From positions 1 through 41,428 of the forward strand of contig JAGGXI010000098.1 in NCBI GenBank assembly GCA_021163155.1: a stretch of DNA of 41,428 bases, written 5' to 3'. Origin of the DNA: Candidatus Aerophobota bacterium (lineage in GTDB: Bacteria; Aerophobota; Aerophobia; Aerophobales; JAGGXI01). The translations under genes and the position numbers were made by a program. Under the pieces are notes generated by a model. That model saw only the letters and a list, made by a program, of their open reading frames with translations, did not search any database and was not told the origin of the DNA. Shown here piece after piece: positions 23,240-36,711 of this stretch (its first letter is position 1; each line of letters opens with the position of its first letter).

Positions 23240-23457
23240 CCAACTTTTGTAGAAAACTCATCTTATTAGATTTTTAGAATATCTTGAAATCCGTAATATT
23301 TGCATTAATAACAATCTATGTAAGAAGAGAAAGATTAATTTCAAAGTCACAGATTCCATATTTATTGAGGTAGGGAACGGTCGCGACCGTTCCCTACTTT
23401 ATAAAAGGATTTTCCTGAAAAAACTAGCTGTCATGTGGTTGAATTGGGGGTTGACAA
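23233..23457. mobile_element. R2 MITE-like element, copy c (inverted), between DUF6504 and fur
   Basis: 225 bp. The left terminus TTGTCAACCAACTTTTGT (23233-23250) leads into the conserved R2 segment in inverted orientation, including CCGTAATATTTGCATTAATA. The remainder differs from copies a and b. Instead of the GGTAGCCGC cassettes it carries one perfect 28-bp palindrome at 23370-23397, GTAGGGAACGGTCG plus its complement. The right end GGTTGACAA is a shortened terminus. Both ends supply outward TTGACA hexamers. Confidence 0.62.
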
Positions 23458-23478
23458 TTTTTAAAAATAGATTATAAT
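23451..23478 (+). promoter_or_regulatory. fur promoter
   Basis: TTGACA (23451-23456), a 16-base spacer and TATAAT (23473-23478), both perfect hexamers. The -35 falls in the right terminus of R2 copy c. The start site is predicted near 23485, inside the Fur box. Confidence 0.75.
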
Positions 23479-23497
23479 GAAAATGAAAATCATTATC
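23479..23497 (+). promoter_or_regulatory. Fur box (autoregulatory operator)
   Basis: GAAAATGAAAATCATTATC matches the 19-bp consensus GATAATGATAATCATTATC at 17 of 19 positions. It directly abuts the -10 and covers the expected transcription start, so Fur with bound metal should block its own gene and any downstream genes on the transcript. Confidence 0.75.
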
Positions 23498-23517
23498 AGT
23501 TAATAGAGGAAATCATT

Positions 23518-23961
23518 ATGCATGGAGCTGGTTGGTGTTATAGGAGATTTAAGGACGAAGGGTTTAGATTAACCATACCCCGACAAGCAATTTTAGATGT
23601 CTTTAATCAGAACTCTAAACACTTAAGTGCAGAAGAGATATTTTTGTTGGTTCACAGAAATTATCCGGGAGTTGGTTTAGCCACAGTATATCGCACCTTA
23701 GATTTATTAACTCAAATGGGCATTATTTTCAAGTCTGATTTTGGAGACGGATGCAGTCGCTATGAATTAGCTGATGAGGCTACTAAAGGGCATCATCATC
23801 TGATTTGCACCCGCTGTGGTCGGATAATTGACTATAGTGATTTTATAGAGAAGGAAGAGAAATTTACTAAAGAGTTGGAAACAGAGTTATCCCAAAAATA
23901 CAAATTTAAAATAAATTCTCATCAAATCCATTTTTATGGATTATGTGATAAATGTCAATAA
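23518..23961 (+). CDS. fur: Fur family metal-responsive repressor
   Basis: 147 residues. An N-terminal winged helix (about 10-85) contains LTIPRQAILDVF, HLSAEEIF and GLATVYRTLDLL, the DNA-reading helix. The dimerisation and metal domain has GHHHLICTRCG (91-101) with His92-94 and a zinc pair Cys97/Cys100, and a second pair Cys143/Cys146 in CDKC at the end. Motifs fit Fur itself, though PerR or Zur cannot be excluded by eye. The near-consensus iron box over its own promoter supports Fur. The ATG at 23518 follows AGAGGA. It opens the plus-strand metal and redox run, with the next gene 23 bases away. Confidence 0.9.
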   Translation: MHGAGWCYRRFKDEGFRLTIPRQAILDVFNQNSKHLSAEEIFLLVHRNYPGVGLATVYRTLDLLTQMGIIFKSDFGDGCSRYELADEATKGHHHLICTRCGRIIDYSDFIEKEEKFTKELETELSQKYKFKINSHQIHFYGLCDKCQ

Positions 23962-23984
23962 TTTTTTATAAAAGGAGGTAAATT

Positions 23985-24260
23985 ATGCCACGAGGAGATG
24001 GAACTGGACCAATGGGAATGGGTCCTATGACAGGTAGAGCTGCAGGGTACTGTGCAGGATTTCCTACTCCTGGGTTTATAAATCCTATAGGAGGTAGGTT
24101 AGGTCTTGGACTTGGTAGAGGTCGAGGGTTTCGATCACGTGCTTATTATGGTTGGGGAAGAACCCCACTTTATTACAATCCCCAAGTTTATCCTGGATAT
24201 GGAGTACCTTACAGAGGCTTTGCTCAACCTTACGGATATTATCCACCCAGAGCTTGGTAA
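23985..24260 (+). CDS. small Gly/Tyr-rich DUF5320-type protein
   Basis: 91 residues, with a very strong AAAGGAGGT site. The head MPRGDGTGPMGMGPMTGRAA is the signature of DUF5320-type proteins found beside NifX-like and ferredoxin-ATPase genes in anaerobes. A single Cys (23) follows in GYCAGF. The remainder is Gly/Arg/Tyr/Pro-rich and looks disordered, ending YGYYPPRAW. It lacks the coiled-coil tail seen in neighbours. Its head is shared almost exactly with the protein at 25794. Function is unknown; position suggests a metal or Fe-S handling role. Confidence 0.8.
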   Translation: MPRGDGTGPMGMGPMTGRAAGYCAGFPTPGFINPIGGRLGLGLGRGRGFRSRAYYGWGRTPLYYNPQVYPGYGVPYRGFAQPYGYYPPRAW

Positions 24261-24262
24261 AC

Positions 24263-24291
24263 CCCATTAGATGCAAAACTATCTAACGGGG
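24263..24291 (+). terminator. hairpin after the first DUF5320-type gene
   Basis: CCCCATTAGAT pairs with ATCTAACGGGG around an 8-base loop, an 11-bp stem with one mismatch, starting two bases after the stop codon. No T-run follows, so it may be a processing or attenuation hairpin rather than a full terminator. Confidence 0.35.
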
Positions 24292-24428
24292 TAAACCCTG
24301 TTAGAAAATTTGGAAGAAGCTTTAAAATAGGTTATTCCAGTAGAAAATTCTGTTTTTATTTATACAGAATGAGCAAGGAAAATATTATTTAATCAAAATT
24401 TTATAAAAAAATGACGGAGGTGATTATA

Positions 24429-24797
24429 ATGGGAGGATATGGTAATCGATATATGTATTATCTTACGGGTTTGCCTGGTTGGATGAGATTTGGTTTTTCT
24501 CCTGGTTGGATAGGGAGAAGTCCTACAGGATTAGGACCGGCTGCAAGTTATATGATGACAGGTCAATGGCCTACTCCTCAAGCTCAGGCTTATTGGCAGA
24601 GTATGCAAGCAGGTCGAGCACCTTATCCATATTTTAGTGGATATGGAGCAGCACCTACAGGAGCTCCTTTTATACCTCAAGCAAACCCAGAGCAAGAGTT
24701 AAGCTTTTTAAAAAATCAGGCTGATAGTTTAAAAAATCAAATGGAACAGATTAACTCCCGAATCAAAGAAATAGAAAAAGCAAAGAAGCAAGAATAA
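24429..24797 (+). CDS. DUF5320-type protein with C-terminal coiled coil
   Basis: 122 residues from the ATG at 24429; GGAGGTG sits seven bases before it, while an ATG 18 bases earlier precedes that site and is rejected. The first 80 residues are aromatic, Gly- and Pro-rich (MGGYGNRYMYYLTGLPGWMR, GFSPGWIGRSPTGLGP) and look unstructured or membrane-peripheral. Residues 82-122 are a clear heptad coiled coil: NPEQELSFLKNQADSLKNQ, then MEQINSRIKEIEKAKKQE. The tail is nearly the same as that of the NifX-like protein at 25111, so the two may pair. There are no Cys. Confidence 0.75.
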   Translation: MGGYGNRYMYYLTGLPGWMRFGFSPGWIGRSPTGLGPAASYMMTGQWPTPQAQAYWQSMQAGRAPYPYFSGYGAAPTGAPFIPQANPEQELSFLKNQADSLKNQMEQINSRIKEIEKAKKQE

Positions 24798-25110
24798 AAA
24801 ATAAGATTTTACTTGCAAAAAAAATATAATAGCAAATAAAAATTGGTAATGTCAAAATTTGCATGAAGGAATGACGGGATAACATTATAGATAAAGAGAA
24901 AAAGGATTATATAGGGAGGAGGAGATTATCCTAAACGAAAAATGGTAGCCGCAACTTTTAAGTTGCGCAAAACAATGCAGGTGGTAGCCGCAACTTTTAA
25001 GTTGCGAAAGAAATATTATTAGATAAGAACGCAGGCTCTGAGCCTTGCGGCTACCAATTACAGAAAATAGATTATTTTGACAATACTTAAAAAGGTAGAG
25101 GGAGATTAAC
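24798..25110. other. intergenic gap with palindromic cassettes
   Basis: 313 bp. No ORF is supported. It holds the cassette block at 24943-25056. A strong but orphan ribosome-site sequence, GGGAGGAGGAG, is at about 24914-24924 with no start codon at usual distance. It may be the former site of the downstream gene displaced by the repeat. Confidence 0.4.
24943..25056. repeat. block of GGTAGCCGC palindromic cassettes
   Basis: Two copies of GGTAGCCGCAACTTTTAAGT plus TGCG lie in direct order. An inverted unit, CGCAGGCTCTGAGCC then TTGCGGCTACC, closes the block, so it begins with TGGTAGCC and ends with GGCTACCA. The same words occur inside R2 copies a and b, but here without R2 termini. Confidence 0.6.
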
Positions 25111-25767
25111 ATGAAAATAGCGGTATCATCTACAGGTACTGATTTAAATGCTCAGGTAGATCCAAGATTAGGGCGCTGTCAATATCTTATTATTGTGGAC
25201 CCAGAAACAATGGAGTTTGAGGCAATTCAAAATACCAGCGTAGGAGCAATGCATGGAGCTGGTATTCAAACTGCCCAAATGATAGCTAATAAAGGCGTCT
25301 CAGTGGTTCTTACTGGTAACAGTGGCCCTAATGCTTTTCAAACTCTGTCAGCGGCAGGAATTCAAGTAATAGTAGGAGTTAACGGACAGGTTAAACAGGC
25401 TATCGAAAGGTATAAAAGGGGAGAATTTAAGTCCACTACTCAAGCAAGTGTTTCTTCTCATTTCGGCACAGGTGCTGGTTCCACCCCCACTCCAGGGACG
25501 ACTCCTGGCGCAGGAACATTCCCCGGAATGGGTATGGGTCAAGGCAGAGGCATGGGAATGGGTGGAGGCAGAGGTATGGGTAGAGGCATGGGAATGGGCC
25601 AAGGTATGATGGGAGGAGGTTTTCAAGGAATGCCTTACGGAGCAGGAACTACTCCCCCACAAATGCCAAAAGACCAGGAGCTACAGTTTTTAAAAAATCA
25701 AATTCAAAATTTAAGCCAGCAGTTAGAAGAGATTAACAAACGAATCAAAGAGATAGAAAAAAAGTAA
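25111..25767 (+). CDS. NifX-like cofactor-binding protein with Gly/Met-rich linker and coiled-coil tail
   Basis: 218 residues in three parts. Residues 1-112 are a dinitrogenase iron-molybdenum cofactor (NifX/NifB C-terminal) fold: MKIAVSSTGTDLNAQVDPRL, YLIIVDPETME, GAGIQTAQMIANKGVSVVLTG, and GVNGQVKQAIERYKRGEFK. Residues about 120-185 are Gly/Met-rich (repeated GMGMG/GRGMG words), possibly metal-binding. Residues about 184-218 are a coiled coil, PKDQELQFLKNQIQNLSQQL then EEINKRIKEIEKK, matching the tail of the 24429 protein. Family members bind Fe-S or Fe-Mo precursors; no nitrogenase genes are present, so another cluster is likely handled. Confidence 0.82.
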   Translation: MKIAVSSTGTDLNAQVDPRLGRCQYLIIVDPETMEFEAIQNTSVGAMHGAGIQTAQMIANKGVSVVLTGNSGPNAFQTLSAAGIQVIVGVNGQVKQAIERYKRGEFKSTTQASVSSHFGTGAGSTPTPGTTPGAGTFPGMGMGQGRGMGMGGGRGMGRGMGMGQGMMGGGFQGMPYGAGTTPPQMPKDQELQFLKNQIQNLSQQLEEINKRIKEIEKK

Positions 25768-25793
25768 TTAATAATAAATAAAGGAGGTAAAAA

Positions 25794-25985
25794 ATGCCTA
25801 GAGGAGATGGAACAGGACCTCCCAATGGTGGAGGTCGTGGTAGAATGGGTGGTAACCGTCCCGGTGCCGGACCCACAGGGAAATGTGTATGCCCAAATTG
25901 CGGGGAAACTATCTCTCATCAAAGAGGAGTCCCCTGTTATCAAGTAAGTTGTCCTAAATGTGGAACTAAAATGGTAAGAGGATAA
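25794..25985 (+). CDS. small zinc-ribbon protein with MPRGDGTGP head
   Basis: 63 residues with a strong AAAGGAGGT site. The head MPRGDGTGP is identical to that of the protein at 23985. A Gly/Arg linker (10-29) leads to a double-knuckle metal site: CVCPNCGE (Cys31, 33, 36) and CPKCGTKM (Cys53, 56), with Cys48 between. This fits a zinc-ribbon or rubredoxin-like knot. It starts 26 bases after the NifX-like gene and ends nine bases before the first ferredoxin-ATPase, so it is in the same operon. Function is unknown. Confidence 0.75.
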   Translation: MPRGDGTGPPNGGGRGRMGGNRPGAGPTGKCVCPNCGETISHQRGVPCYQVSCPKCGTKMVRG

Positions 25986-25994
25986 GGTTAATTA

Positions 25995-26849
25995 ATGGAG
26001 GGGAAAATAGTTATTTCTGTAGCCAGTGGAAAAGGGGGGACTGGGAAAACTACTGTAGCGGTAAATTTAGCATTATCCCTGGATAATAAAAGGATTCAAT
26101 TTTTAGATTGCGATGTGGAAGAACCGAATGCTCATATTTTTCTAAAGCCTAAAATTGTGCATGCTCAATCTATAGGTATTCCTGTTCCCCAGGTTAACGA
26201 AGAAAAATGCACCTTTTGTGGAAGATGTGCTCAAGTTTGCCTCTACAATGCTATTGCTGTAGTTAAAAAAAAGGTCTTAATTTTTCCTGAACTTTGTCAT
26301 GGTTGTGGTGGATGCAGTCTTCTCTGCCCAGAAAAAGCAATTAAAGAGGTGAATAAACCAATAGGAGTTCTTGAAGAGGGAAAAACTGACTCAATTCAAC
26401 TTATTCAGGGAAAACTTAATATAGGAGAAATGATGGCTCCTCCTTTAATTAGAGCTGTAAAAAAAGCAGCGAATAATAACTTAATTACTATTATTGATGT
26501 CTCTCCGGGAACTTCCTGTCCGGTGATTGAGGCAGTAAAAGATAGCGATTTTTGTATCTTAGTGACAGAACCTACTCCTTTTGGCTTAAATGACTTGATT
26601 TTGGCAGTGGAGGTATTAAGAAAGATAAAAATACCTTTTGGAGTAGTGATTAATCGTGCTGATGTGGGAGATAAAAAAGTTGAAAAGTATTGTAAAAAAG
26701 AGAGAATCCCTATTTTAATGCGTATTCCTATGGATAGAGAAATCGCTATATCCTATTCTAATGGAATCCCTATAGTTGAAGGAAAACCAGATTATAAAGA
26801 AAAATTTAAGGAACTCTATAAAGAAATTAAAACAATGGTTCTAAAATAG
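25995..26849 (+). CDS. MinD-superfamily P-loop ATPase with inserted ferredoxin domain (1)
   Basis: 284 residues. A deviant Walker A, SGKGGTGKTT (11-20), places it in the Mrp/MinD/NifH group, which act as dimers. Inserted at about 66-115 is a two-cluster ferredoxin: CTFCGRCAQVC (Cys72, 75, 78, 82) and CHGCGGCSLLC (Cys101, 104, 107, 111). IIDVSPGTSCPVI near 165-177 is the switch and Walker B region. Such genes occur in tandem pairs with NifX-like and DUF5320 genes in anaerobes. Proposed roles are Fe-S cluster assembly or electron-coupled metal delivery; none is proven. A close paralogue follows 15 bases later. Confidence 0.88.
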   Translation: MEGKIVISVASGKGGTGKTTVAVNLALSLDNKRIQFLDCDVEEPNAHIFLKPKIVHAQSIGIPVPQVNEEKCTFCGRCAQVCLYNAIAVVKKKVLIFPELCHGCGGCSLLCPEKAIKEVNKPIGVLEEGKTDSIQLIQGKLNIGEMMAPPLIRAVKKAANNNLITIIDVSPGTSCPVIEAVKDSDFCILVTEPTPFGLNDLILAVEVLRKIKIPFGVVINRADVGDKKVEKYCKKERIPILMRIPMDREIAISYSNGIPIVEGKPDYKEKFKELYKEIKTMVLK

Positions 26850-26864
26850 CTGCTGAGGAGATAT

Positions 26865-27719
26865 ATGAAACAGATTGTAGTTATTAGCGGTAAAGGGGGA
26901 ACAGGAAAGACAACTATTGCTGCTTCTCTTGCCAGTTTAGCTAAAAATAAAGTAATGGCAGATTGTGATGTGGATGCAGCAGATTTATATCTTTTACTTC
27001 ATCCTACTATTAAAGAGACCTATGAGTTTAAAGGAGGGAAAGTAGCGGAAATAGACCAGGAGAATTGTAATCAATGTGGAAAATGTCAACAGGTCTGTCG
27101 ATTTGAAGCAATAGATAATAATTTTGTAGTTGACTCTATCTCTTGCGAAGGATGTGGAGTATGTTTTTATATTTGCCCTCCAGAAGCAATTAAAATGGTG
27201 GAGAGACTTTCAGGAAAATGGTTTATATCTGAAACTAAATATGGTCCTTTAGTTTATGCAAAATTAGAAGTTGCCCAGGAAAACTCAGGGAAATTAGTAA
27301 CCTTAGTCAGGGAAAGAGCTAAATTAATTGCTGAAAAAGAAAAAAAAGATTTTGTTATTATAGATGGCCCGCCAGGAATTGGTTGCCCAGTTATTGCTTC
27401 TTTAGCAGGAGTGGATATCGCTTTAATTGTTACTGAACCCACTCTCTCTGGTATTCATGATTTGGAACGCATTGTAGGATTAGCTCGCCATTTTGGTATC
27501 AAAAGTTTGGTTTGCATTAATAAATATGACTTAAATCTTAAAAATACACAGAATATAGAAAAATTTTGCCAGGTTTACAATATTGAATTAGTTGGTAAAA
27601 TACCCTTTGATATAATGGTCACTAAAGCCTTAATTGCAGGTAAACCGATAGTGGAATACTCAGATAATCATACTTCAGGCCAAATAAGAAGCCTATGGGG
27701 AAAAATTATGAAAGTATAA
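26865..27719 (+). CDS. MinD-superfamily P-loop ATPase with inserted ferredoxin domain (2)
   Basis: 284 residues, the same length and layout as the preceding gene but clearly diverged. Walker A SGKGGTGKTT is at 8-17, then ADCDVDAADLYLLL. The ferredoxin insert has CNQCGKCQQVC (Cys68, 71, 74, 78) and CEGCGVCFYIC (Cys94, 97, 100, 104). IIDGPPGIGCPVIASLAGVD is the switch region. The tandem arrangement suggests a heterodimer with the first ATPase. The start ATG at 26865 has a GAGGAG site. It is the last gene before the structured 27741-27867 element, and a terminator ends the unit at 27978-28010. Confidence 0.88.
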   Translation: MKQIVVISGKGGTGKTTIAASLASLAKNKVMADCDVDAADLYLLLHPTIKETYEFKGGKVAEIDQENCNQCGKCQQVCRFEAIDNNFVVDSISCEGCGVCFYICPPEAIKMVERLSGKWFISETKYGPLVYAKLEVAQENSGKLVTLVRERAKLIAEKEKKDFVIIDGPPGIGCPVIASLAGVDIALIVTEPTLSGIHDLERIVGLARHFGIKSLVCINKYDLNLKNTQNIEKFCQVYNIELVGKIPFDIMVTKALIAGKPIVEYSDNHTSGQIRSLWGKIMKV

Positions 27720-27740
27720 TAAAACTTTATCATAACTATT

Positions 27741-27867
27741 GACAAATATAACCATTTATAGCCTACCGTGTAGGCTAATTTAAGCCCTACACCTCAAAAT
27801 ATTGAGGTTGACTCGTGTAAACTCAGGAGGTTATTGGTCCCTGAGGTAGGCAAAAGTAATATTTGTC
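27741..27867 (+). ncRNA. candidate structured RNA or palindromic element with four-way-junction potential
   Basis: 127 nt with nested complementarity. An outer 9-bp stem pairs GACAAATAT (27741-27749) with ATATTTGTC (27859-27867). A 7-bp stem pairs GCCTACC (27761-27767) with GGTAGGC (27845-27851). Inside it are three hairpins: GTGTAGG/CCTACAC (27768-27774 with 27786-27792), CTCAA/TTGAG (27793-27806) and CTCAGG/CCTGAG (27822-27845). The 5' GCCTAC could instead pair with the nearer GTAGGC (27770-27775), giving a mutually exclusive fold. It may be a cis-regulatory RNA, a small RNA, or another MITE; no second copy was seen in the window. Confidence 0.35.
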
Positions 27868-27912
27868 TATAAATATTACAACTATAGTCTAATATGCTTT
27901 GAGATATTAATG

Positions 27913-27939
27913 CATAGTAGCCGCAACCTTCAGGCTATG
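27913..27939. repeat. solitary GTAGCCGC cassette
   Basis: CATAGTAGCCGCAACCTTCA then GGCTATG is a degenerate hairpin related to the GGTAGCCGC cassettes at 2370, 24943 and 36027. It lies between the structured element and the terminator at 27978. Confidence 0.4.
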
Positions 27940-27977
27940 TAGGATGAATTCTGTAACTATCAATTTATTGGAATGCT

Positions 27978-28010
27978 AAAAAGCCAATATAATTATAAAT
28001 TGGCTTTTTT
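27978..28010 (+). terminator. rho-independent terminator
   Basis: The stem AAAAAGCCAAT pairs with ATTGGCTTTTT around a 10-base AT loop and is followed by a T-run. It ends the fur-to-ATPase transcript or the candidate RNA. The A/T tracts would also let it work on the other strand, but no gene points that way. Confidence 0.7.
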
Positions 28011-28045
28011 ATTAAATTTATATATTTAAAAGGAGAAAGGGAAAA

Positions 28046-28909
28046 ATGGAACAGACAAGTGCATCTCCCCAACAAAATAAGCAACAAGAACAATTTAATA
28101 AGCAACAAAAACAGATTGAAAGAAGAATGAATATAATTAAGCATAAGTTAACTATCGTAAGTGGTAAGGGAGGAGTAGGTAAAAGCACAGTTGCAGTTAA
28201 TTTAGCTTATAGCCTGCTTTCCCAAAATAGAGAAGTGGGTATTCTTGATGTAGACATTCATGGGCCCAGTTTAGCCAAAATGATAGGTATTGAGAATCTT
28301 CGCCTGGGCGCTTCTCAAGAAAATAATGTAGAACCTATTGCCGTTACTCCTCATTTAAAAGCAGTTACTATTGCTTCTTTACTTGAGAGCAGCGATACCC
28401 CTGTCGTTTGGCGTGGTCCCTTAAAGATGAAGCTAATAGCTCAGTTTTTAGGTAATGTCAATTGGGGTAATCTTGATTATTTAATTATTGATTCTCCCCC
28501 CGGAACTGGGGATGAGCCCTTAAGTGTAGCTCAGCTCATTCCTAATATGGATGGGATGGTAATTGTAACTACTCCTCAGGATGTGGCCCTTTTGGACTCT
28601 CGAAAATCGATTGGCTTTGCTAAAACTCTTAAAGTGCCAGTTATTGGGATAATAGAAAATATGAGTGGATTAATCTGTCCTCACTGTGGAGGGAAAATCG
28701 ACCTCTTTAAAACGGGAGGAGGGGAAAAGGCAGCGAAAGATTTTAAAATTCCTTTTTTAGGTAGGATTCCTATTGAGCCAAGTATAGTAGATTCTACTGA
28801 TAAAGGTAAACCATTTATTCAAACTTACAGAGGAACAGAAACAGCAAAATTGATGAATGAAATTGCTATGAAAATTATGGAGATAGTGGAAAATAAAAAT
28901 CAGCAATGA
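28046..28909 (+). CDS. mrp: Mrp/NBP35-type Fe-S cluster carrier ATPase
   Basis: 287 residues. A Gln-rich, charged N-terminal tail (1-28) precedes the P-loop [10 protein letters not shown] (39-48). [23 protein letters not shown] and [18 protein letters not shown] (148-165) follow, then [12 protein letters not shown] (205-216), whose CxxC pair (Cys211, Cys214) binds a bridging [4Fe-4S] cluster across the dimer. It delivers clusters to apoproteins. The N-terminal MIP18-like domain of enteric Mrp is absent, so it is the short type. AAAGGAG lies before the ATG. It follows the terminator, so it starts a new unit, and is 55 bases from def. Confidence 0.92.
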
Positions 28910-28964
28910 TGATAGATTAGAAGAAAGAGGTTGTAAAAAGGAGACAGAGAAAGGAGAAAGTAAA

Positions 28965-29504
28965 ATGGATAACTTAAAACTGCACAAATATGGGGACCCT
29001 ATTTTGAGAAAACAAGCAGAATTGGTTAAAAAAATAAATCCCGAAGAGAAGGAACTTTTGTCTAATATGGCTAAGATAATGTATAAAAACGAAGGAATAG
29101 GTTTAGCAGCTCCTCAAGTAGGTATAAATAAGAGGATTATTATTGTCCATACAGATAATGGACTTTTAAAGTTAATCAATCCCCAAATTTTAGAGAAAGA
29201 AGGAGAGGACTCTCTTTCGGAAGGATGTCTAAGCCTTCCCGAGATTTTTGTGCAGGTAAATAGAGCAAAAAGAATCAAAGTCGAAGGATTAAACGAGGAG
29301 GGGAAATTAATAAAACTAAGAGCTGAAGATTTTCTTGCCCGGGTTATTCAACATGAAATTGACCATCTTAATGGAGTACTTATCATTGATTATGCAACAG
29401 AGACGAGAAAAGAGAAGATAAGGGGCAATTTAGAAAAAATAGCTAATCATACCAAAATGATTTTTGAAGTAAAAAATAGGAGAAAAGCAAAAATGGTACT
29501 GTAA
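28965..29504 (+). CDS. def: peptide deformylase
   Basis: 179 residues. It removes the N-formyl group from nascent proteins. All three family motifs are present: GIGLAAPQVG (44-53), EGCLSLP (86-92) with metal ligand Cys88, and QHEIDHLNG (129-137) with ligands His130 and His134 and catalytic Glu131. The ATG has an AAAGGAG site. The usual partner, methionyl-tRNA formyltransferase, is not nearby; trmO follows instead after 75 bases. Confidence 0.96.
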   Translation: MDNLKLHKYGDPILRKQAELVKKINPEEKELLSNMAKIMYKNEGIGLAAPQVGINKRIIIVHTDNGLLKLINPQILEKEGEDSLSEGCLSLPEIFVQVNRAKRIKVEGLNEEGKLIKLRAEDFLARVIQHEIDHLNGVLIIDYATETRKEKIRGNLEKIANHTKMIFEVKNRRKAKMVL

Positions 29505-29579
29505 TCAGTGAATAATAAAAAGTAGTTAAACTTTACTATAAAAAACAACTTTGGCTGCAAAAAATGGGAAAAACTTGAA

Positions 29580-29942
29580 TTGAAGATAGAGATTCATCCT
29601 ATAGGAGTGGTAAAAAATAACCTTCAAGATTATCAAAGGATAGAAATTTATGAAGATTTTTTAGAAGCTCTTAAAGGAATTGAAAATTTTAAATATTTAT
29701 GGGTTCTATTTTGGTTACATAAAGTATCCGAAGAGGATAGAAAGACCCTCCAGGTTCATGCTATGGGGAATTTTAGCGTTCCCAAAAGGGGAGTTTTTAC
29801 TACCAGGTCCCCAAGAAGACCTAATCCTATCGGTCTTACAAAGGTAAAATTTTTAAAGAGAGAAAAAAATATAATTCTTGTCCAGGGCCTGGATGCCTTT
29901 GAAGGAAGTCCTGTCCTGGATATTAAGATAGTCTGGGAATAA
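29580..29942 (+). CDS. trmO: tRNA t6A37 methyltransferase TrmO (TsaA/UPF0066 family)
   Basis: 120 residues, a single beta-barrel domain. It starts IHPIGVVKNN; FKYLWVLFWLHKV is typical for the strand that follows. The AdoMet site is GVFTTRSPRRPNPIGLT (71-87), the family hallmark, and the LDAFEGSPVLDIK motif (103-115) is near the C terminus. It methylates N6 of t6A37 in tRNA-Thr, a base made by TsaD (7707-8717). The start is TTG at 29580, the only initiation codon near the conserved N terminus; its ribosome site is weak (GGGAAAAAC). The C-terminal extension of enteric TrmO is absent. Confidence 0.85.
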   Translation: MKIEIHPIGVVKNNLQDYQRIEIYEDFLEALKGIENFKYLWVLFWLHKVSEEDRKTLQVHAMGNFSVPKRGVFTTRSPRRPNPIGLTKVKFLKREKNIILVQGLDAFEGSPVLDIKIVWE

Positions 29943-29973
29943 ACCTTATAAAATAAAAGGAAAGAAGATAAAA

Positions 29974-30243
29974 ATGTTTCAAGTGAAAGAAGAGCTATGT
30001 GTAGGATGTGGGTTATGTATAAAATTCTGTCCAACAGGAGCAATAAGTCTTATTTATAACAAAGCAAATATTGATAAAGAAAGGTGCATCCAGTGCTCTC
30101 GTTGTAAAGCAATTTGTCCTCAAGAAGCAATTGTTGAATTAGCTGAGATTGTTTCATTAAAAGAATTAAAGGATACTTTTCAGGATTTAGAAAAACAATT
30201 AAATGAGATTTTTAAAAAAATAGAAAGGCTTGAAAAACATTGA
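29974..30243 (+). CDS. two-cluster ferredoxin with coiled-coil tail
   Basis: 89 residues. Two [4Fe-4S] motifs: CVGCGLCIKFCPTGAI (Cys9, 12, 15, 19) and CIQCSRCKAICPQEAI (Cys38, 41, 44, 48). Both match the inserted ferredoxin of the two ATPases at 25995 and 26865. Residues 60-89 form a charged coiled coil (LKELKDTFQDLEKQLNEIFK, then KIERLEKH), unusual for a plain ferredoxin and reminiscent of the tails at 24429 and 25111. It could be an electron or cluster donor for the ATPases. The gene follows trmO by 31 bases and ends just before R1 copy E. Confidence 0.85.
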   Translation: MFQVKEELCVGCGLCIKFCPTGAISLIYNKANIDKERCIQCSRCKAICPQEAIVELAEIVSLKELKDTFQDLEKQLNEIFKKIERLEKH

Positions 30244-30627: not shown

Positions 30628-31365
30628 ATAATAACCAAAATTATAATCTGCATTTGCATCGGTTTTCTTGCCGGTTTTATGAGTGGTATGTTTGGAATCG
30701 GTGGAGGGACAGTGAGAATACCTTTGCTTTATCTTGCCGGTTTGCCCCTATTGAGTGCTTTTGGGATTAATTTTTTTGTTATCCCTTTTGCATCCTTTGT
30801 AGGTGCAGTAAGTCAAAGAAAAAACATTGCAAAAGAGATAGTTGTCTATGCAATTGCTGGAGGTGTTTTAGGAGAAATAATTGGAGCATATTTTGTAGGG
30901 TTTATTCCAACATTGATATTGACAATTATTTATGTTATCCTTTGCATTGTAGTAACATTGGGCATCTTTTCAGATAAAATTATGCCAAGCCTTGCCAGGA
31001 AGATTAAACTTACTAATAAAAATGTCTTTAGCTCCTCATTTTTTGTAAGTTTTATAACAGGTTTAAGAGGCGGCAGTGGAGGCCAGGTCTTCCCAGCTCT
31101 TTTTAAAAGCCTTGGTCTTAATACTCATAAAGCAATTGCCACTTCATTAACTGTATCAATTTTTACGGCTTTTGGCGCTGTACCAATATATTGGCACCGT
31201 GGAAACATAATCTGGTTACCAGCATTGTGCGTTTTGTCAGGGTCAATGGTAGGAGCAAGAGTAGGAAGTAAAATTTCATTAAAAACAAAATCTACCTGGT
31301 TGGAGATCGGACTTGCAGTGCTTGTTATAGCGCTTGCTTTTAGTGTAATATATAAAGCATTATGA
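30628..31365 (+). CDS. TauE/SafE family membrane exporter, possibly with an AUA start
   Basis: About 245 residues if read from 30628. The family is built of two repeats of membrane helices with GIGGG-type motifs: here GFMSGMFGIGGGTVRIPLLY near the start and ITGLRGGSGGQVFPALFKSL in the middle, with seven to eight hydrophobic segments. Members move sulfite, sulfonates or other small anions. The first usual start codon is ATG 30679, but it falls inside the first motif and would remove half of helix 1. The in-frame codons upstream (ITKIIICICIGFLAGF) restore that helix. The AAGGAGG site is six bases before an ATA at 30628 and far from 30679. Either a rare AUA start or a damaged ATG is likely. The next gene overlaps or follows directly. 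Confidence 0.8.
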   Translation: MITKIIICICIGFLAGFMSGMFGIGGGTVRIPLLYLAGLPLLSAFGINFFVIPFASFVGAVSQRKNIAKEIVVYAIAGGVLGEIIGAYFVGFIPTLILTIIYVILCIVVTLGIFSDKIMPSLARKIKLTNKNVFSSSFFVSFITGLRGGSGGQVFPALFKSLGLNTHKAIATSLTVSIFTAFGAVPIYWHRGNIIWLPALCVLSGSMVGARVGSKISLKTKSTWLEIGLAVLVIALAFSVIYKAL

Positions 31366-31376
31366 GAGGAGGTAAA

Positions 31377-31793
31377 ATGAAAAAGATAAGAATTGCTCTT
31401 GGCTCAAACGATAGAGAAAACATTTCTCCAGGTCATATGGGTATGGCAGAAGACTTTTATGTATACGACCTTTTTGAAGATGGAAACTCAAATTTTATAG
31501 AGAAGAGGAAGAATACATCGCCAAATGAAAAAGGTAAACATGGTCTTCCCGAAAAGATGAAGGCAATTATGGAGATACTTAAGGATGCCAATGTTATTAT
31601 AGGTAGAAAAATGAGCCCAAATTTTGTAAAAATAGCTGCTAATACTAAGTTTCAACCTGTAATGATAAAGATAGATAAAATTTCGGAAATTATGAAAGAA
31701 GTGACGAAATCTTTTGATAAAATTTATAATCTTGTTGAGCAGAGAAAAAAAGGTGATAGACCAAAAGAGATACCTAAATTAGGGAAGGAGTAA
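31377..31793 (+). CDS. NifX-like (dinitrogenase Fe-Mo cofactor) domain protein
   Basis: 138 residues from ATG 31377, which follows GAGGAGGT; an ATG at 31362 overlapping the TauE stop would add five residues. It opens KKIRIALGSNDRENISPGHM and continues AEDFYVYDLFEDG, with a second half GLPEKMKAIMEILKDANVII then GRKMSPNFVKIAANTKFQPV, which fits the NifX-like alpha/beta fold although strongly diverged. The C-terminal tail is basic. No Cys are present, so clusters would be held by His or Met. It is probably translated with the TauE gene. It is one of three NifX-like proteins in the window. Confidence 0.65.
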   Translation: MKKIRIALGSNDRENISPGHMGMAEDFYVYDLFEDGNSNFIEKRKNTSPNEKGKHGLPEKMKAIMEILKDANVIIGRKMSPNFVKIAANTKFQPVMIKIDKISEIMKEVTKSFDKIYNLVEQRKKGDRPKEIPKLGKE

Positions 31794-31914
31794 TTACCAT
31801 AAAAATAGCTTAGACATAAACCAGATTTGGCAGCTATTAATGAATTTTTCTTAAAGATGAAATAATTTCGGTAAATAGGGATATTTATGGAATTGCCCTT
31901 AAAGAAGGAGAGAA

Positions 31915-33531
31915 ATGAAACATAAAATATATTTCCCACAATTTGGTAAAGAGACAGAAATTTCTAAAGGGAGGACCGTTTTAGCTTATGCTAAGGAGTT
32001 AGGAATACCCATAAATTCCAGTTGTGGAGGGTTAGGAATGTGTAAAGAGTGTAGAATTTCTGTTGAAAAGGGATGCGAAGCTTTAAACAAAAGAACAGAA
32101 CTCGAAAGAGATTTAAACGATAATGAGAGACTTGCCTGTCAAACTATTATTGAAGATTCTTCTGTCGATGTATATGTAAAGGTCTTACATTATGGCTATC
32201 TTCAAATCCTCGCAAAAGGGAAGGGCAAAAGGATAGAATTAAACCCGCTAACCAGAAGAGTAGGCAATAAGGTTATATTTGAAAATAAAGAGATTGATAA
32301 CTATAGGGGCCATATTTATGGAATAGCAGCAGATATAGGCACTACAACTATTGCTTTATATTTAATGGATTTAGAAAATGGGGACTGTATCTGCACAGAT
32401 GCTTTTGAAAATCCTCAAAGAATAATTGATGGCAATAATGTCATAAGCAGAATAATGTATGATAGAAAAAATCCTGGCAAGCTTCATAAAAATTTAATTT
32501 CCTGTATTAACAAAAAAATAAGAGAGATGCCTTGCGATGAACAGGAAATTTATGAAATGGTCGTCGTTGGTAATAGTACTATGAGAGACATCTTTTTTGA
32601 CTTAGATGTACAAACTCTTGGAGTTACTCCCTTTAAATCAGTAACAGAGCTAAGTAAAGGGCCTGCTTTTTTAAATAAAAAAGCAGATGAGCTTTCTTTA
32701 AATATTCATAAAAACGCAAATATTTATGGTGCGCCGTTGATAGGCTCACATGTAGGGGCGGATACAACAGCTGTTTGTTTATCTTCAGGATTATTTAATA
32801 CATCTAATGAGATAGCTATGGCTATAGATATAGGAACGAATGGGGAAATAGCTTTAAAGTCTTCCAATGGTAAAATAATAGTAACTTCTTGTGCCGCAGG
32901 ATCGGCATTAGAACCAATGCCTGCTTTAAAGGGAACAATTCAAAAAATGAGCTTAAATAATGAGAAAATAGAATGGAAGACCATAGGGGATATAGAGCCT
33001 ATAGGAATCTGTGGTTCTGGCATAATTGACTTACTGGGAGAATTGATTAAAAATAAAAAGATGAATGAGTATGGTTATCTTACCGATGGGAAAATATTTA
33101 AGATAACAGATAAAATCCGGATAACTCAAAAAGAGATTAAAGGAGAGAATGGTTTAATGTGGAGTAAAGCCGCTATCTCTTTAGGAATAAAAGCCTTACT
33201 GGAAAAAGCAGGAATGGGCACTAATGACTTAGACAGGGTTTACCTTGCAGGCTCTTTTGGTACCTATATTAATAAAGAAAACGCAAGAAGAATAGGGTTG
33301 GTGCCTGCGGTTCCTTTAAATAAAATAATACAGGTGGGTAATGCTGCTGCCGAGGGAGCGAAAGAAATGCTATTATCTAGAAAGAGAAGGAAACTCGCTG
33401 AAAAATCGGTAGAAAAAGCACAACATATTGATCTTGCTTTAATCCCCAATTATGGAAGAAGGCTTATGCTTGATGAACAAAATTTTAAAGAATTAAAATT
33501 TAAATGGAGTAAATCGCAACCTGGTAATTAA
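31915..33531 (+). CDS. RACo-like ferredoxin-ASKHA ATPase (corrinoid-protein activator family)
   Basis: 538 residues. An N-terminal [2Fe-2S] ferredoxin (1-90) has Cys37, 43, 46 and 75 (SSCGGLGMCKECRISV and ERLACQ). After a linker, the DUF4445/RACo ASKHA domain shows GIAADIGTTTIALYLMD (about 136-152), VVVGNSTMRDIFF, AMAIDIGTNGEIAL (about 303-316), CAAGSALE, GICGSGIIDLLGEL and YLAGSFGTYI. Family members use ATP to re-reduce cob(II)alamin in methyltransferase corrinoid proteins. No corrinoid protein, methyltransferase (mtrH type) or B12 gene is in the window, so the partner is unknown. It has an AAGGAGAG site and stands 14 bases ahead of queF. Confidence 0.88.
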   Translation: MKHKIYFPQFGKETEISKGRTVLAYAKELGIPINSSCGGLGMCKECRISVEKGCEALNKRTELERDLNDNERLACQTIIEDSSVDVYVKVLHYGYLQILAKGKGKRIELNPLTRRVGNKVIFENKEIDNYRGHIYGIAADIGTTTIALYLMDLENGDCICTDAFENPQRIIDGNNVISRIMYDRKNPGKLHKNLISCINKKIREMPCDEQEIYEMVVVGNSTMRDIFFDLDVQTLGVTPFKSVTELSKGPAFLNKKADELSLNIHKNANIYGAPLIGSHVGADTTAVCLSSGLFNTSNEIAMAIDIGTNGEIALKSSNGKIIVTSCAAGSALEPMPALKGTIQKMSLNNEKIEWKTIGDIEPIGICGSGIIDLLGELIKNKKMNEYGYLTDGKIFKITDKIRITQKEIKGENGLMWSKAAISLGIKALLEKAGMGTNDLDRVYLAGSFGTYINKENARRIGLVPAVPLNKIIQVGNAAAEGAKEMLLSRKRRKLAEKSVEKAQHIDLALIPNYGRRLMLDEQNFKELKFKWSKSQPGN

Positions 33532-33544
33532 GGAGGATTTTAAA

Positions 33545-33976
33545 ATGTTATATGAAAACCGAGTTCCACCTGAAGAAGAGCTAAAGGCAAAAAAGACCAT
33601 AGGGAAAAGCTTTGAGTCCTCAGCTATTGACTGCTCTATTCTTAAAACTTTTCCTTACGAATATTCTTATCGGCCTATTCAAATGGAGCATACTACAGAT
33701 GAATTCACCTGTATCTGTCCTTTCTCTGAACTACCTGACCAGGCTACTATCACTATTAAATATATACCCAACAAATTATGTATAGAGCTTAGGTCGTTAA
33801 AATACTATCTTTATTCTTTTAGACAAGTGAAGATATTTCATGAACATGTAGTAAATAAAATTTTAGAAGATTTAACATCTATTTTAGACCCTTTAGAAAT
33901 GATCATAGTGGGAAAATTTGCCGTAAGAGGAGGTATAGTTACTATGGCTACAGCCTCTTATAAAAAAGAAAAGTAA
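33545..33976 (+). CDS. queF: NADPH-dependent preQ0 reductase QueF (short, type I)
   Basis: 143 residues, the length of the unimodular QueF. It reduces 7-cyano-7-deazaguanine (preQ0) to preQ1 for queuosine synthesis. The catalytic Cys is in FTCICPFSELPD (Cys58) and the proton-donating Asp is Asp65. The QueF motif follows as ELRSLKYYLYSFRQ (76-89), then FHEHVVNKILEDL and GKFAVRGGIVT. With QueH at 5546 it shows the cell makes queuosine, although the other pathway genes are outside. AAGGAGG lies before the ATG. R4 copy 2 begins at its stop. Confidence 0.93.
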   Translation: MLYENRVPPEEELKAKKTIGKSFESSAIDCSILKTFPYEYSYRPIQMEHTTDEFTCICPFSELPDQATITIKYIPNKLCIELRSLKYYLYSFRQVKIFHEHVVNKILEDLTSILDPLEMIIVGKFAVRGGIVTMATASYKKEK

Positions 33977-34088
33977 ATGGGTGAATGAGATAATGAGTAA
34001 ATGAGTTGATTGCACAAACACTTTGACACTATTTCTTGCAACTCCTTCACCTCCCTCGTCTACCCATTCACTCATCCACCCATCTACC
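33974..34088. repeat. R4 inverted-repeat element, copy 2
   Basis: The left arm AATGGGTGAATGAGATAATG (and on) is mirrored by the right arm CTACCCATTCACTCATCCAC then CCATCTACC, around a 50-bp centre. The right arm is nearly the reverse complement of the left arm of copy 1 at 1438. It overlaps the queF stop codon. Confidence 0.6.
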
Positions 34089-34143
34089 AGAGTTATGACC
34101 GCTCAATAGAGAAATTTATCAAAACTTTTAAGGAGAGAGGACG

Positions 34144-34590
34144 ATGGTGGTAGTAAAAAGTAAACAATTTATTTACAAAAATGAATTAAGTTGGAAAAGT
34201 GAAAAAAAGGGATTGCTTGCTTCTAAGGATAAGCCTCCTTTAGAGGTAGCTTGTCCACCTGAGTTTGGAGGACATCCTGGAATCTGGTCACCGGAAGATT
34301 TGTTAGTTGCCTCAGTTAATATTTGCATAATGACTACGTTTTTGTATTACGCTAAAAATTGGGAACTTAAATTTTCAAGTTACCAAAGTTATGCTGAAGG
34401 AGTTGCAGAGATAGTAGAAAAAAAACTTGTGTTTTCTACTATAGAGATTAGACCTAAAATTTTAGTAACCTCTGATAGGGATATAAAAGAAGCAGAAAAA
34501 GTTTTAAGATTTTCTGAAAGAAATTGTCTTGTATCTAATTCCATAAAGTCTAAAATTATTTTAAAGCCAGAGATAAGAGTGAATTCCTAA
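34144..34590 (+). CDS. OsmC/Ohr family protein
   Basis: 148 residues. The OsmC-fold landmarks are HPGIWSPEDLLVASVNICIM (44-63), with the first reactive Cys (61), and SERNCLVSNSIK (124-135), with the second (Cys128). Helix and strand order fits the family, which dimerises and reduces organic or other peroxides through the Cys pair. PPEFGGHPG near 38-46 is the usual Gly-rich loop. It could serve oxygen or sulfur-stress defence; substrate is not predictable. GGAGAGAGG precedes the ATG. A NifX-like gene follows after 29 bases. Confidence 0.87.
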   Translation: MVVVKSKQFIYKNELSWKSEKKGLLASKDKPPLEVACPPEFGGHPGIWSPEDLLVASVNICIMTTFLYYAKNWELKFSSYQSYAEGVAEIVEKKLVFSTIEIRPKILVTSDRDIKEAEKVLRFSERNCLVSNSIKSKIILKPEIRVNS

Positions 34591-34619
34591 GAAAATAATA
34601 ATTAAAGGAGAAAAATAGA

Positions 34620-34994
34620 ATGAAAATAGCTATTTCAACTGATGGAGATTTTGTTTCAGCGCATTTTGGAAGATGTCCAGCCTTTACTCTCGTAGAAATT
34701 GAGGGAGATAAAGTAGTAAATAAAGAGGCAATCGCTAACCCTGGTCATCATCCTGGATTTTTACCCAACTTCTTAGCGGAAAGAGGGGTAGAGTATATTA
34801 TCTGTGGTGGTATGGGGCAGAGAGCTCAAGGTATGTTTGAGGAAAAACAGATTAAACCAATAGTGGGAGTACAGGGAAGAGTAGATGAGACTATCGATAA
34901 ACTGATTAGGGGTGAGCTTAAAGGCGGAGAGAGTCTGTGCCAGCCAGGAAGAGGCAAAGGATACGGTATTCCCAAGACTGAGATAGACGAATGA
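34620..34994 (+). CDS. small NifX-like (Fe-Mo cofactor biosynthesis domain) protein
   Basis: 124 residues, essentially only the NifX-like domain: MKIAISTDGDFVSAHFGRCP with the characteristic HFGR-CP metal-binding segment, ANPGHHPGFLPNFLAERGVE, YIICGGMGQRAQ, and GVQGRVDETIDKLIRGEL. Relatives bind Fe-S or Fe-Mo cluster precursors. It ends in a short Gly/Lys tail. It is closest in layout to the first domain of the 25111 protein but lacks the Gly/Met linker and coiled coil. An AAAGGAG site precedes it. Confidence 0.85.
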   Translation: MKIAISTDGDFVSAHFGRCPAFTLVEIEGDKVVNKEAIANPGHHPGFLPNFLAERGVEYIICGGMGQRAQGMFEEKQIKPIVGVQGRVDETIDKLIRGELKGGESLCQPGRGKGYGIPKTEIDE

Positions 34995-35048
34995 AATTAC
35001 TCTTTCCAATAACTATAGATAAACTCTGTGAATAGATGGGAAATATAA

Positions 35049-35342
35049 ATGGATTTCTCACAAATTAACAAAGCAAGAAAGCTTTTAGGTCTTTTGGAAG
35101 AGGCTACCTTAAAGGAGATAAAGCAAGCCTATAGAGAGATGGCTAAAAAATATCATCCTGATGGATATCCAGAATCAAGAAGAGAAGAGTGTAAAAATAT
35201 AATGATTCGGATAAACCAGGCTTATAAAACTCTTTTAGATTATATCAACTGTTACAAAATCTCTTTTAAAAGAGAAGAAGTAGAAAGAAATGACCCCGAA
35301 ATGGGGATAAAAAGATTTCGAGGCGATTGGCTAGGAAGATAA
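35049..35342 (+). CDS. J-domain co-chaperone, small
   Basis: 97 residues. The first 65 are a J domain: ARKLLGLLEEATLKEIKQAY, then REMAKKYHPD with the HPD motif at 36-38 that stimulates DnaK ATPase, then IRINQAYKTLLDYI. The Gly/Phe and zinc-finger regions of DnaJ are absent. By analogy with HscB, a stand-alone J protein near Fe-S scaffold genes may help cluster transfer, but HscB-type helices are not seen. A methyltransferase gene follows after 15 bases. Confidence 0.82.
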   Translation: MDFSQINKARKLLGLLEEATLKEIKQAYREMAKKYHPDGYPESRREECKNIMIRINQAYKTLLDYINCYKISFKREEVERNDPEMGIKRFRGDWLGR

Positions 35343-35357
35343 GAAGAGCAAAAAACT

Positions 35358-35984
35358 ATGAGTTTTAATCCAAATTTTTGGGAGAATGAAAAAATTGCCC
35401 AGAATTATGATAAGTGGTATGAGAGAGGAAAAGGAAAATATGCAGATAATATGGAAAAAGACTTATTTTTAAAACTAATTAATCCTTATAAAGGGCAAAC
35501 TCTTCTAGAGATAGGAAGCGGTACAGGCCATTTCTCTTTCTGGTTTCATAGTTTAAGGCTAAAAGTAGTTGGGGTAGATAGCTCTTCTGCTATGTTAAGA
35601 GTAGCCAAAGAGAAAACAAAAGATAACAAGATAAATTTTATCAAAGCAGAGGCTGAAGAATTACCTTTCTCCTCCAGGTCCTTTGATTTAGTAGCTTTAG
35701 TAGCTACTCTGGAGTTTGTAAACTCGCCCGAAAAAATCTTAAAAGAAGCATTCAGAGTAGCTAAGAAAAAAATATTTTTAGGGGTTTTGGCTAAATGGAG
35801 CTTTTTAGCTTTTAAACGCAAGATAAAAGCTTTATTTAAAAGTAGCGTTTATAAAGAAGCTAAATTCTATTCAGTGAAAGAACTCATTAAACTGGTAAAA
35901 AGGTACGCTCCTGAAAAGGCAAAAATTCAATATAAGAAGACCTTAAAAGGAGCTTTTATTGGACTGGCAGTTAATCTTAAATAA
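35358..35984 (+). CDS. class I SAM-dependent methyltransferase
   Basis: 208 residues. Motif I is LLEIGSGTGHFSFWF (49-63), with VVGVDSSSAMLRVA for the acidic ribose-binding end of strand 2, AEAEELPFSSRSFDLVALVA for motif II/III, and ATLEFVNSPEKILKEAFRVA. Ubiquinone/menaquinone-type or small-molecule methyltransferases share this layout. The substrate is unknown. The C-terminal 60 residues are Lys-rich and may bind an anionic partner. It ends 13 bases before R2 copy b. Confidence 0.85.
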   Translation: MSFNPNFWENEKIAQNYDKWYERGKGKYADNMEKDLFLKLINPYKGQTLLEIGSGTGHFSFWFHSLRLKVVGVDSSSAMLRVAKEKTKDNKINFIKAEAEELPFSSRSFDLVALVATLEFVNSPEKILKEAFRVAKKKIFLGVLAKWSFLAFKRKIKALFKSSVYKEAKFYSVKELIKLVKRYAPEKAKIQYKKTLKGAFIGLAVNLK

Positions 35985-35997
35985 GATAGAAATCATT

Positions 35998-36243
35998 TTG
36001 TAAGCTAACTTTTGCACAAAAAAATGGTAGCCGCGAGGCTCAGAGCCTGCGTAAAACAGCGCAACCTTACTTTACCGATCAATCTTGATATTGTAAGGAT
36101 AACTACAGCTTAAATGTGATATTTGTGATTTTGAAATTGATCTTTCCATTCTTTACATAGATCGTTGTTAATGCAAACATTACGGATTCCAAGATATTCT
36201 AAAAATCTAATAAGATGAGTTTCCTGCAAAAATTGATTGTAAA
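35998..36243. mobile_element. R2 MITE-like element, copy b
   Basis: 246 bp with degraded termini: the left TTGTAAGCTAACTTTTGC matches 15 of 18 to the R2 end, and the right is GCAAAAATTGATTGTAAA. Contents follow copy a: GGTAGCCGC, a GAGGCTCAGAGCCTGCG palindrome, a damaged second cassette, then the conserved segment with ACATAGATCGTTGTTAATGC. It keeps the GATATTCTAAAAATCTAATA stretch missing in copy a. The outward TTGACA is lost at both ends. It ends 21 bases before the NifU-like gene. Confidence 0.65.
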
Positions 36244-36264
36244 GAATATTAGGAGCAGAAAAAA

Positions 36265-36711
36265 ATGACGAATAATATAGATGAATTTGTTAATGAACTA
36301 CAAGAGAAAATTATAGAAGAAGCAAAAAAAGAGTATACGGATACAGTAATCGAGCACTGGACGAATCCAAAAAATCTCGGAAAGATAGAAAATGCAGATG
36401 CCTATGGAAGGGTAACTGGGCCTTGTGGAGATACTCTGGAGATATACCTTAAAATAAAAAGAGGAAAAATTATTGCTGCTAATTTTCTTACCGATGGATG
36501 CGGGCCATCCATCGCTTGCGGAAGTATGACTACAGAATTAGTTATAGGAAAATCCCTTGAAGAGGCACAAAAAATTACTCAAGAAGTTATCTTACAACAT
36601 TTAGGTAGTCTTCCAGAAGAGAGTCGTCATTGTGCTCTTTTAGCAGCAAATACCCTGCAGGAGGCATTAAAGAATCACAAAAAAATTAAAAAAAATGCAA
36701 AAGTTGATTAA
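36265..36711 (+). CDS. NifU/IscU-like Fe-S cluster scaffold
   Basis: 148 residues. The NifU N-terminal domain shows VIEHWTNPKNLGKIENADAY, GRVTGPCGDTLEIYLKI with Cys54, FLTDGCGPSIACGSMTTELV with Cys79 and Cys85, and HCALLAANTLQEAL with Cys123. IscU and NifU scaffolds assemble clusters on three Cys plus Asp; here TGPCGD, GCGPSIACGS and HC supply them. There is no cysteine desulfurase next to it. The C terminus is Lys-rich. It starts 21 bases after R2 copy b and converges on the DUF364 gene. Confidence 0.87.
   Translation: MTNNIDEFVNELQEKIIEEAKKEYTDTVIEHWTNPKNLGKIENADAYGRVTGPCGDTLEIYLKIKRGKIIAANFLTDGCGPSIACGSMTTELVIGKSLEEAQKITQEVILQHLGSLPEESRHCALLAANTLQEALKNHKKIKKNAKVD

Follow-up and report, generated by a model that had tools for sequence, protein, structure and literature searches.

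Clusters of the ORP (orange protein) type, on which Fievet et al. 2011 is reportedly a source, are widespread in anaerobic bacteria and archaea, and their role is debated, with cell division set against Fe-S maturation. Strict anaerobes rely heavily on Fe-S proteins, and little is known of how these organisms traffic Fe-S clusters. MrpORP passes Fe-S clusters to Orp3 and Orp4 and carries a 3Fe-4S cluster in its NifX domain; it is polar in Desulfovibrio, and a putative role in cell division has been reported for ORP (PMC6345978). The ORP gene cluster of Desulfovibrio is also covered in PMC4641369. IssA of Pyrococcus furiosus combines a NifX-type domain with an unstructured cationic Gly-rich tail (pI 10.7), stores thioferrate and is induced by sulfide under sufficient iron (PMC5524996). 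In excerpts from PMC3949148, AF2378-AF2380 of Archaeoglobus fulgidus are described as highly expressed NifX-domain and CbiA-family genes, which the authors link to D. vulgaris genes.

We analysed a stretch of 41,428 nucleotides (the window) from a draft genome of a Candidatus Aerophobota bacterium (1.83 Mb, 119 contigs, 93% complete). The first-pass annotation had placed a Fur gene with a near-consensus box, followed on the same strand by genes for metal and Fe-S proteins, at positions 23479-30243. ORF and domain annotation recovered all of these parts on the + strand, in the order given in Table 1, along with two genes between Mrp and the ferredoxin that had been overlooked, def and trmO. Gaps of 150 bp before DUF5320b, 313 bp before the NifX fusion and 326 bp before Mrp separate the genes, and those of the window are not a single tight operon. 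In the relative with locus L007 the part from NifX to the ferredoxin is compact (gaps of at most 39 bp) and no gap downstream of fur exceeds 186 bp, which makes a single transcript plausible there. Besides the fusion, separate NifX genes are found at 31362 and 34620.

Table 1. Predicted features of the Fur-linked gene cluster in the window.
Feature	Coordinates	Strand	Basis or remarks
Sigma-70 promoter	23451..23478	+	TTGACA-16-TATAAT, 12/12 consensus
Fur box GAAAATGAAAATCATTATC	23479..23497	+	17/19 vs consensus, abutting -10 hexamer
Fur-family repressor, cluster-linked subfamily	23518..23961	+	PF01475 111.5 bits
DUF5320a: MPRGDGTGP head, Gly/aromatic/Arg-rich, pI 10.2	23985..24260	+	PF17253 61.4 bits
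DUF5320b: aromatic/Gly N-terminal part and C-terminal coiled coil	24411..24797	+	PF17253 25.2 bits
NifX fusion: ORP/NifX domain, Gly/Met/Arg tail and DUF5320-type coil	25111..25767	+	PF02579 83.4 bits, PF17253 38 bits
Zinc-ribbon protein, MPRGDGTGP head, 63 aa, 6 Cys	25794..25985	+	
ATP1: MinD/ParA-like ATPase, two CxxCxxCxxxC ferredoxin motifs, Orp3/Orp4 type	25995..26849	+	
ATP2: second MinD-like ATPase, two 4Fe-4S motifs	26865..27719	+	
Mrp/NBP35 Fe-S carrier ATPase, CPHC motif	28046..28909	+	PF10609 314.7 bits
Peptide deformylase (def)	28965..29504	+	PF01327; syntenic in L006 and L007
TrmO-like tRNA methyltransferase (trmO)	29580..29942	+	TIGR00104 above cut-off
2x[4Fe-4S] ferredoxin with C-terminal coiled coil	29974..30243	+	PF00037 59.7 bits

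The top PDB match of the NifX domain is the D. gigas ORP (2wfb, E 2.4e-20), with MTH1175 also among the closest, and the fusion has no match to the NifX and NifB models of NCBIfam. The domain had been called NifX-like, but ORP/IssA-like is the better description; a NifX-domain tree as a means of choosing between ORP and IssA was set aside, the alignment having too few columns. PF00148, which marks nifDK-type genes, is absent from the window genome, 16 order-mates and 4 other genomes, which bears out the earlier statement that no nitrogenase is present and, with the NCBIfam result, rules out NifX proper and a link to nitrogenase. Across 15 sequences, ATP1 keeps its Walker A motif and all eight cysteines of the insert unchanged. 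Its predicted structure is a MinD-type fold (pLDDT 84) that matches MinD, FlhG/FleN, Cfd1 and ApbC with modest TM-scores of about 0.5, probably because the ferredoxin insert is without counterpart in the matched structures. ATP1 and ATP2 are joined as one protein in two distant genomes, which points to a heterodimer, and the pair with its four predicted [4Fe-4S] sites probably acts as one. The Mrp scores 361.7 bits against the MrpORP model NF041136 over residues 29-286 (cut-off 450) and ends after the P-loop domain, lacking the C-terminal NifX domain of MrpORP.

At locus L067, a homologue 55% identical to D. gigas ORP adjoins the equivalent ATPase pair, and in other phyla true MrpORP genes (>450 bits) are found in clusters with this pair (L021, L045, L054, L079 and L088), in L054 together with DUF5320 and the zinc ribbon. 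Since the window combines an ORP-like NifX domain with the same ATPase pair that stands beside MrpORP genes in other phyla, we conclude from gene content that it represents an ORP/MrpORP-type cluster, whose core is already known from Desulfovibrio. The earlier claim that the parts do not all occur together in any described pathway is therefore not upheld, as tandem 4Fe-4S MinD ATPases with ORP/NifX and Mrp are the Desulfovibrio ORP cluster (PMC6345978).

The run of fur, DUF5320, NifX fusion, zinc ribbon, ATP1, ATP2, Mrp, def and ferredoxin is common to three genomes of the order, that of the window included, and the zinc-ribbon protein is 85-94% identical to its L006 and L007 counterparts (BLAST). 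DUF5320b is kept in 7 relatives, and a ferredoxin-coil gene lies close to the cluster in L006, L007, L015 and L016. At 51 named bacterial and archaeal loci, which reach at least 3 kb to each side and were chosen for holding ATP1, so that the figures describe the ATP1 neighbourhood and not a frequency, ATP2 is adjacent to ATP1 in 46, and within 9.5 kb of ATP1 there is a NifX-type gene in 48 and Mrp in 30. Random co-variation of the neighbours, named beforehand as the outcome that would speak against the proposal, was thus not seen. Among 61 genomes, NifX is present in 24/26 genomes with the ATPase pair and 10/35 without it (p 4e-7) and DUF5320 in 20/26 and 1/35 (p 7e-10), p values that ignore kinship among the genomes; outside the order of the window the corresponding values are 6e-6 and 1e-5. 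The pair is present in 20 of the 21 genomes with DUF5320. The earlier view of a conserved set of putative Fe-S proteins, linked to Fur and lacking nitrogenase, is to that extent supported.

The Fur box was scored against the classical 19-base consensus GATAATGATAATCATTATC. It is the best match in the 1.83 Mb genome and the only site with 2 mismatches, and a control pattern scanned across the same genome gave no match. Three other genomic sites have 3 mismatches and lie near non-iron genes (an aminotransferase gene, amino-acid transporter/aminotransferase genes and a cation-antiporter operon); these we take as chance. The first base of the box directly follows the last base of the promoter. The Fur protein has the Fur domain and the conserved His-rich HHHLxCxxCG region, and with its own box shows the features of the family. 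By family knowledge, the cluster-linked Fur would be an iron-dependent repressor, and regulation would run in the direction of repression at high iron.

Cluster-linked Fur genes form one clade (n=18, UFBoot 94 / SH-aLRT 95), most members of which lie on contig stretches with cluster genes, with one more beside DUF5320 at a contig end. Upstream of 14/18 of them, including loci of WOR-3, Omnitrophota, Atribacterota and Clostridia, the box lies no more than 6 bases from the end of a promoter that matches the consensus at 11 or 12 of its 12 positions; as promoters were looked for upstream of the box, their presence is less surprising than their quality and spacing. Shuffling of the upstream sequences gave p <=0.003 for 15/18 boxes of the clade versus 3/24 for other Fur genes. 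A predicted Fur box at the transcription start site of a consensus promoter suggests a dedicated regulator placed where the metal-loaded repressor would block initiation. In the window's genome, another Fur paralog stands ahead of the feoA-feoA-feoB run. Two features appear to be new: a Fur box that adjoins a sigma-70 promoter of perfect consensus, an arrangement kept in different phyla, and a distinct Fur subfamily that is tied to the cluster across several phyla, with feoAB preceded by another Fur.

Fur presence in general was rejected as a predictor of the cluster, since Fur as such shows no association with the ATPase pair among 61 genomes (p 0.73). This, together with the finding of a linked Fur at only 6/51 named loci, suggests that Fur is an add-on outside the core. 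Fur control, claimed earlier for the whole set, has good support for the first transcript only; in the window it may or may not reach the downstream genes, and the three gaps noted above could cut NifX, the ATPases and Mrp off from the Fur promoter.

DUF5320a and the NifX fusion exceed the PF17253 (DUF5320) cut-off of 27 bits, and DUF5320b falls just below it. In the AlphaFold model of the fusion, residues 1-110 are ordered, about 119-184 disordered and 187-217 form a helical coil. Its tail has a pI of 11.7, is rich in Gly, Met and Arg and poor in aromatics, and lies at a composition distance of 0.42 from the IssA tail. DUF5320a and the IssA tail are closely similar in composition, which is not homology (G.24/.21, P.14/.16, K+R.11/.10, aromatic.19/.20), and the best matches to the IssA-tail composition among 89,082 windows of 70 residues are nearly all Gly-rich, mostly DUF5320-type cluster proteins. 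Judging by sequence, DUF5320b, the NifX fusion and the ferredoxin have similar coils, through which they may be joined. In the literature, we found mentions of DUF5320 on unrelated topics only. That DUF5320 proteins nearly always occur with the ATPase pair and match the thioferrate-binding tail of IssA in composition appears to be new, and their link with ORP/NifX and the tandem ATPases offers a testable role for a family of unknown function.

Our preferred reading, held with about even confidence, is that the cluster encodes a Fur-repressed ORP-type module of an anaerobe for the assembly and delivery of Fe-S clusters or iron sulfide, switched on when iron is short. With ample iron, Fe-loaded Fur would occupy the box, which covers the point where transcription from the very strong fur promoter begins, and block fur and the co-directional DUF5320 gene, or the entire operon in compact relatives; as iron falls, the gene set would be expressed. 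The ORP/NifX domain, with its cationic Gly-rich tail in cis, would gather an anionic iron-sulfide or Fe-S precursor, and the coil of the fusion would join DUF5320 proteins that supply similar tails in trans. ATP1/ATP2 and Mrp would then use ATP to load clusters and hand them to client proteins, for which the cluster ferredoxin is one candidate. The metals bound by the cluster proteins, the contacts among these proteins and their clients we infer.

The locus could instead encode an IssA-like store, in which the NifX fusion, together with the DUF5320 proteins, envelops thioferrate or some other polymer of iron sulfide, and from which clusters are withdrawn by the ATPases and Mrp. The shared architecture of a NifX-type domain with a disordered cationic tail and the IssA-like make-up of DUF5320a agree with this, but composition is no proof of homology, the fusion's own tail departs from that of IssA as described above, and stores are expected at plentiful iron, when the Fur promoter should be off. 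Repression at high iron thus speaks for assembly and delivery when iron is short rather than for storage, and we consider a store rather unlikely. Assembly and storage predict opposite responses to iron. Storage cannot be argued from a missing ferritin, as ferritin-fold proteins are encoded in the genome, and a protein of this type itself counts against a store; given these and an IscU/NifU-type scaffold, the cell's main iron store or Fe-S system may lie outside the cluster.

Another reading, the one first put forward for the ORP complex, is a MinD-type module for positioning or cell division, with Fe-S clusters serving as redox switches; the resemblance of ATP1 to MinD and FlhG/FleN, the putative division role reported for ORP and the polar location of MrpORP would suit it. 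The same fold matches include the Fe-S carriers Cfd1 and ApbC, however, the neighbours are Fe-S and iron genes with no division genes among them, and scores are far under the MinD cut-offs, which makes this very doubtful. Maturation of a special heterometal cluster, such as the Mo-Cu-S cluster of D. gigas ORP, or of a single client such as the RACo-type protein encoded nearby is quite improbable: the domain is of ORP type and a RACo-type gene lies near the ATPase pair in L006, L009, L016 and L017, but RACo was undetected near the pair at the named loci, the genes annotated nearby showed none for Mo or Cu, and the Fur box points to iron. The presence of def and trmO and the gaps in the window could be taken as signs of a chance run of unrelated housekeeping Fe-S genes, a reading that is next to impossible and for the core is already refuted by an order conserved across families and phyla and by co-occurrence p values of 1e-7 to 1e-10.

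The Fur-repressed assembly and delivery module can be extended into a bolder proposal, which we think unlikely in full: that a dedicated Fur subfamily, found in several phyla and mostly in uncultured anaerobes, controls an iron-sulfide scaffold supplied both in cis and in trans, where DUF5320 proteins would act as wrapping peptides resembling the IssA tail and associate by way of their coiled coils with the ORP/NifX domain, while a heterodimer of the two 4Fe-4S MinD ATPases would load and unload them with the help of Mrp. Such an iron-regulated particle for Fe-S assembly or storage would, if real, be without a published description, and DUF5320 would gain a function. The conserved Fur box at the transcription start site of a consensus promoter ties one ORP branch to iron, and its role becomes testable. 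We found no description of dedicated Fur regulation and Gly-rich accessory proteins of this ORP-type variant in the literature searched.

Among the described systems, AF2378-AF2380 share NifX-domain and CbiA-family genes with the window, and Fur and DUF5320 are not mentioned for them in the excerpts from PMC3949148. The window resembles IssA in its NifX-type domain with an unstructured cationic Gly-rich tail and in the composition of DUF5320a, but differs in a coiled-coil end, a Met-rich and aromatic-poor tail, partner ATPases and predicted Fur control. With MrpORP (NF041136) it shares the Mrp P-loop domain with CxxC, whereas NifX is separate and the score is below the cut-off. The ORP cluster is the closest counterpart in content: both have two MinD-like ATPases (Orp3, Orp4), each with two 4Fe-4S motifs, an ORP/NifX-domain protein (Orp8-like), an Mrp/NBP35 carrier and anaerobic hosts. 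DUF5320 proteins, the zinc ribbon and the coil-bearing ferredoxin of the window are not in the ORP protein list of PMC6345978, and no sigma54 activator of the DVU2106 type is present among the genes annotated between 19.6 and 37.4 kb. In the window the Orp8-like domain is fused to a tail and coil, and Mrp has no NifX domain, in contrast to the fused MrpORP; its genes are co-directional rather than arranged in two divergent operons, and the predicted control is by Fur, with a promoter-abutting box and sigma-70, where the ORP cluster uses sigma54 and DVU2106.

The tandem MinD-like ATPases of the cluster, ATP1 and ATP2, were found as single-protein fusions in two distant genomes, and a RACo-type gene lies close to the ATPase pair in the loci of relatives L006, L009, L016 and L017. 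In the window itself, further iron/sulfur genes follow downstream of the cluster at 30679-36711 with the strand unchanged (+).

Features outside the cluster (L130 and L139, other stretches of the window's own genome; L133 and L134, distant genomes)
Feature	Location	Strand	Remark
ATP1-ATP2 single-protein fusion	L133:115-1974	+	~600 residues
ATP1-ATP2 single-protein fusion	L134:102-1913	-	~600 residues
TauE exporter	within window 30679-36711	+	
NifX-domain protein	window 31362	+	additional to cluster's NifX gene
RACo-type 2Fe-2S/ASKHA protein	window 31915	+	
QueF-like	window 33545	+	
OsmC	window 34144	+	
NifX-domain protein	window 34620	+	second additional one
NifU/IscU-type scaffold	window 36265	+	
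DUF364 protein (putative heavy-metal chelation)	window 36719-37447	-	faces IscU-type gene
DUF5320 protein, full-length	L130:2865-3167	-	away from cluster
Second Fur paralog, then feoA, feoA, feoB	L139:920-7322		Fur immediately 5' of first feoA

The DUF5320 gene on L130 has an ArsR-like regulator and secDF as neighbours, and an additional FeoB is encoded 3' of the feoA-feoA-feoB run on L139. Two direct copies of ggtagccgcaacttttaagttgcg occupy window 24944-25007, within the gap 5' of the NifX gene. With a related sequence near 27918, they have the look of a dispersed repeat, one that makes the gaps longer.
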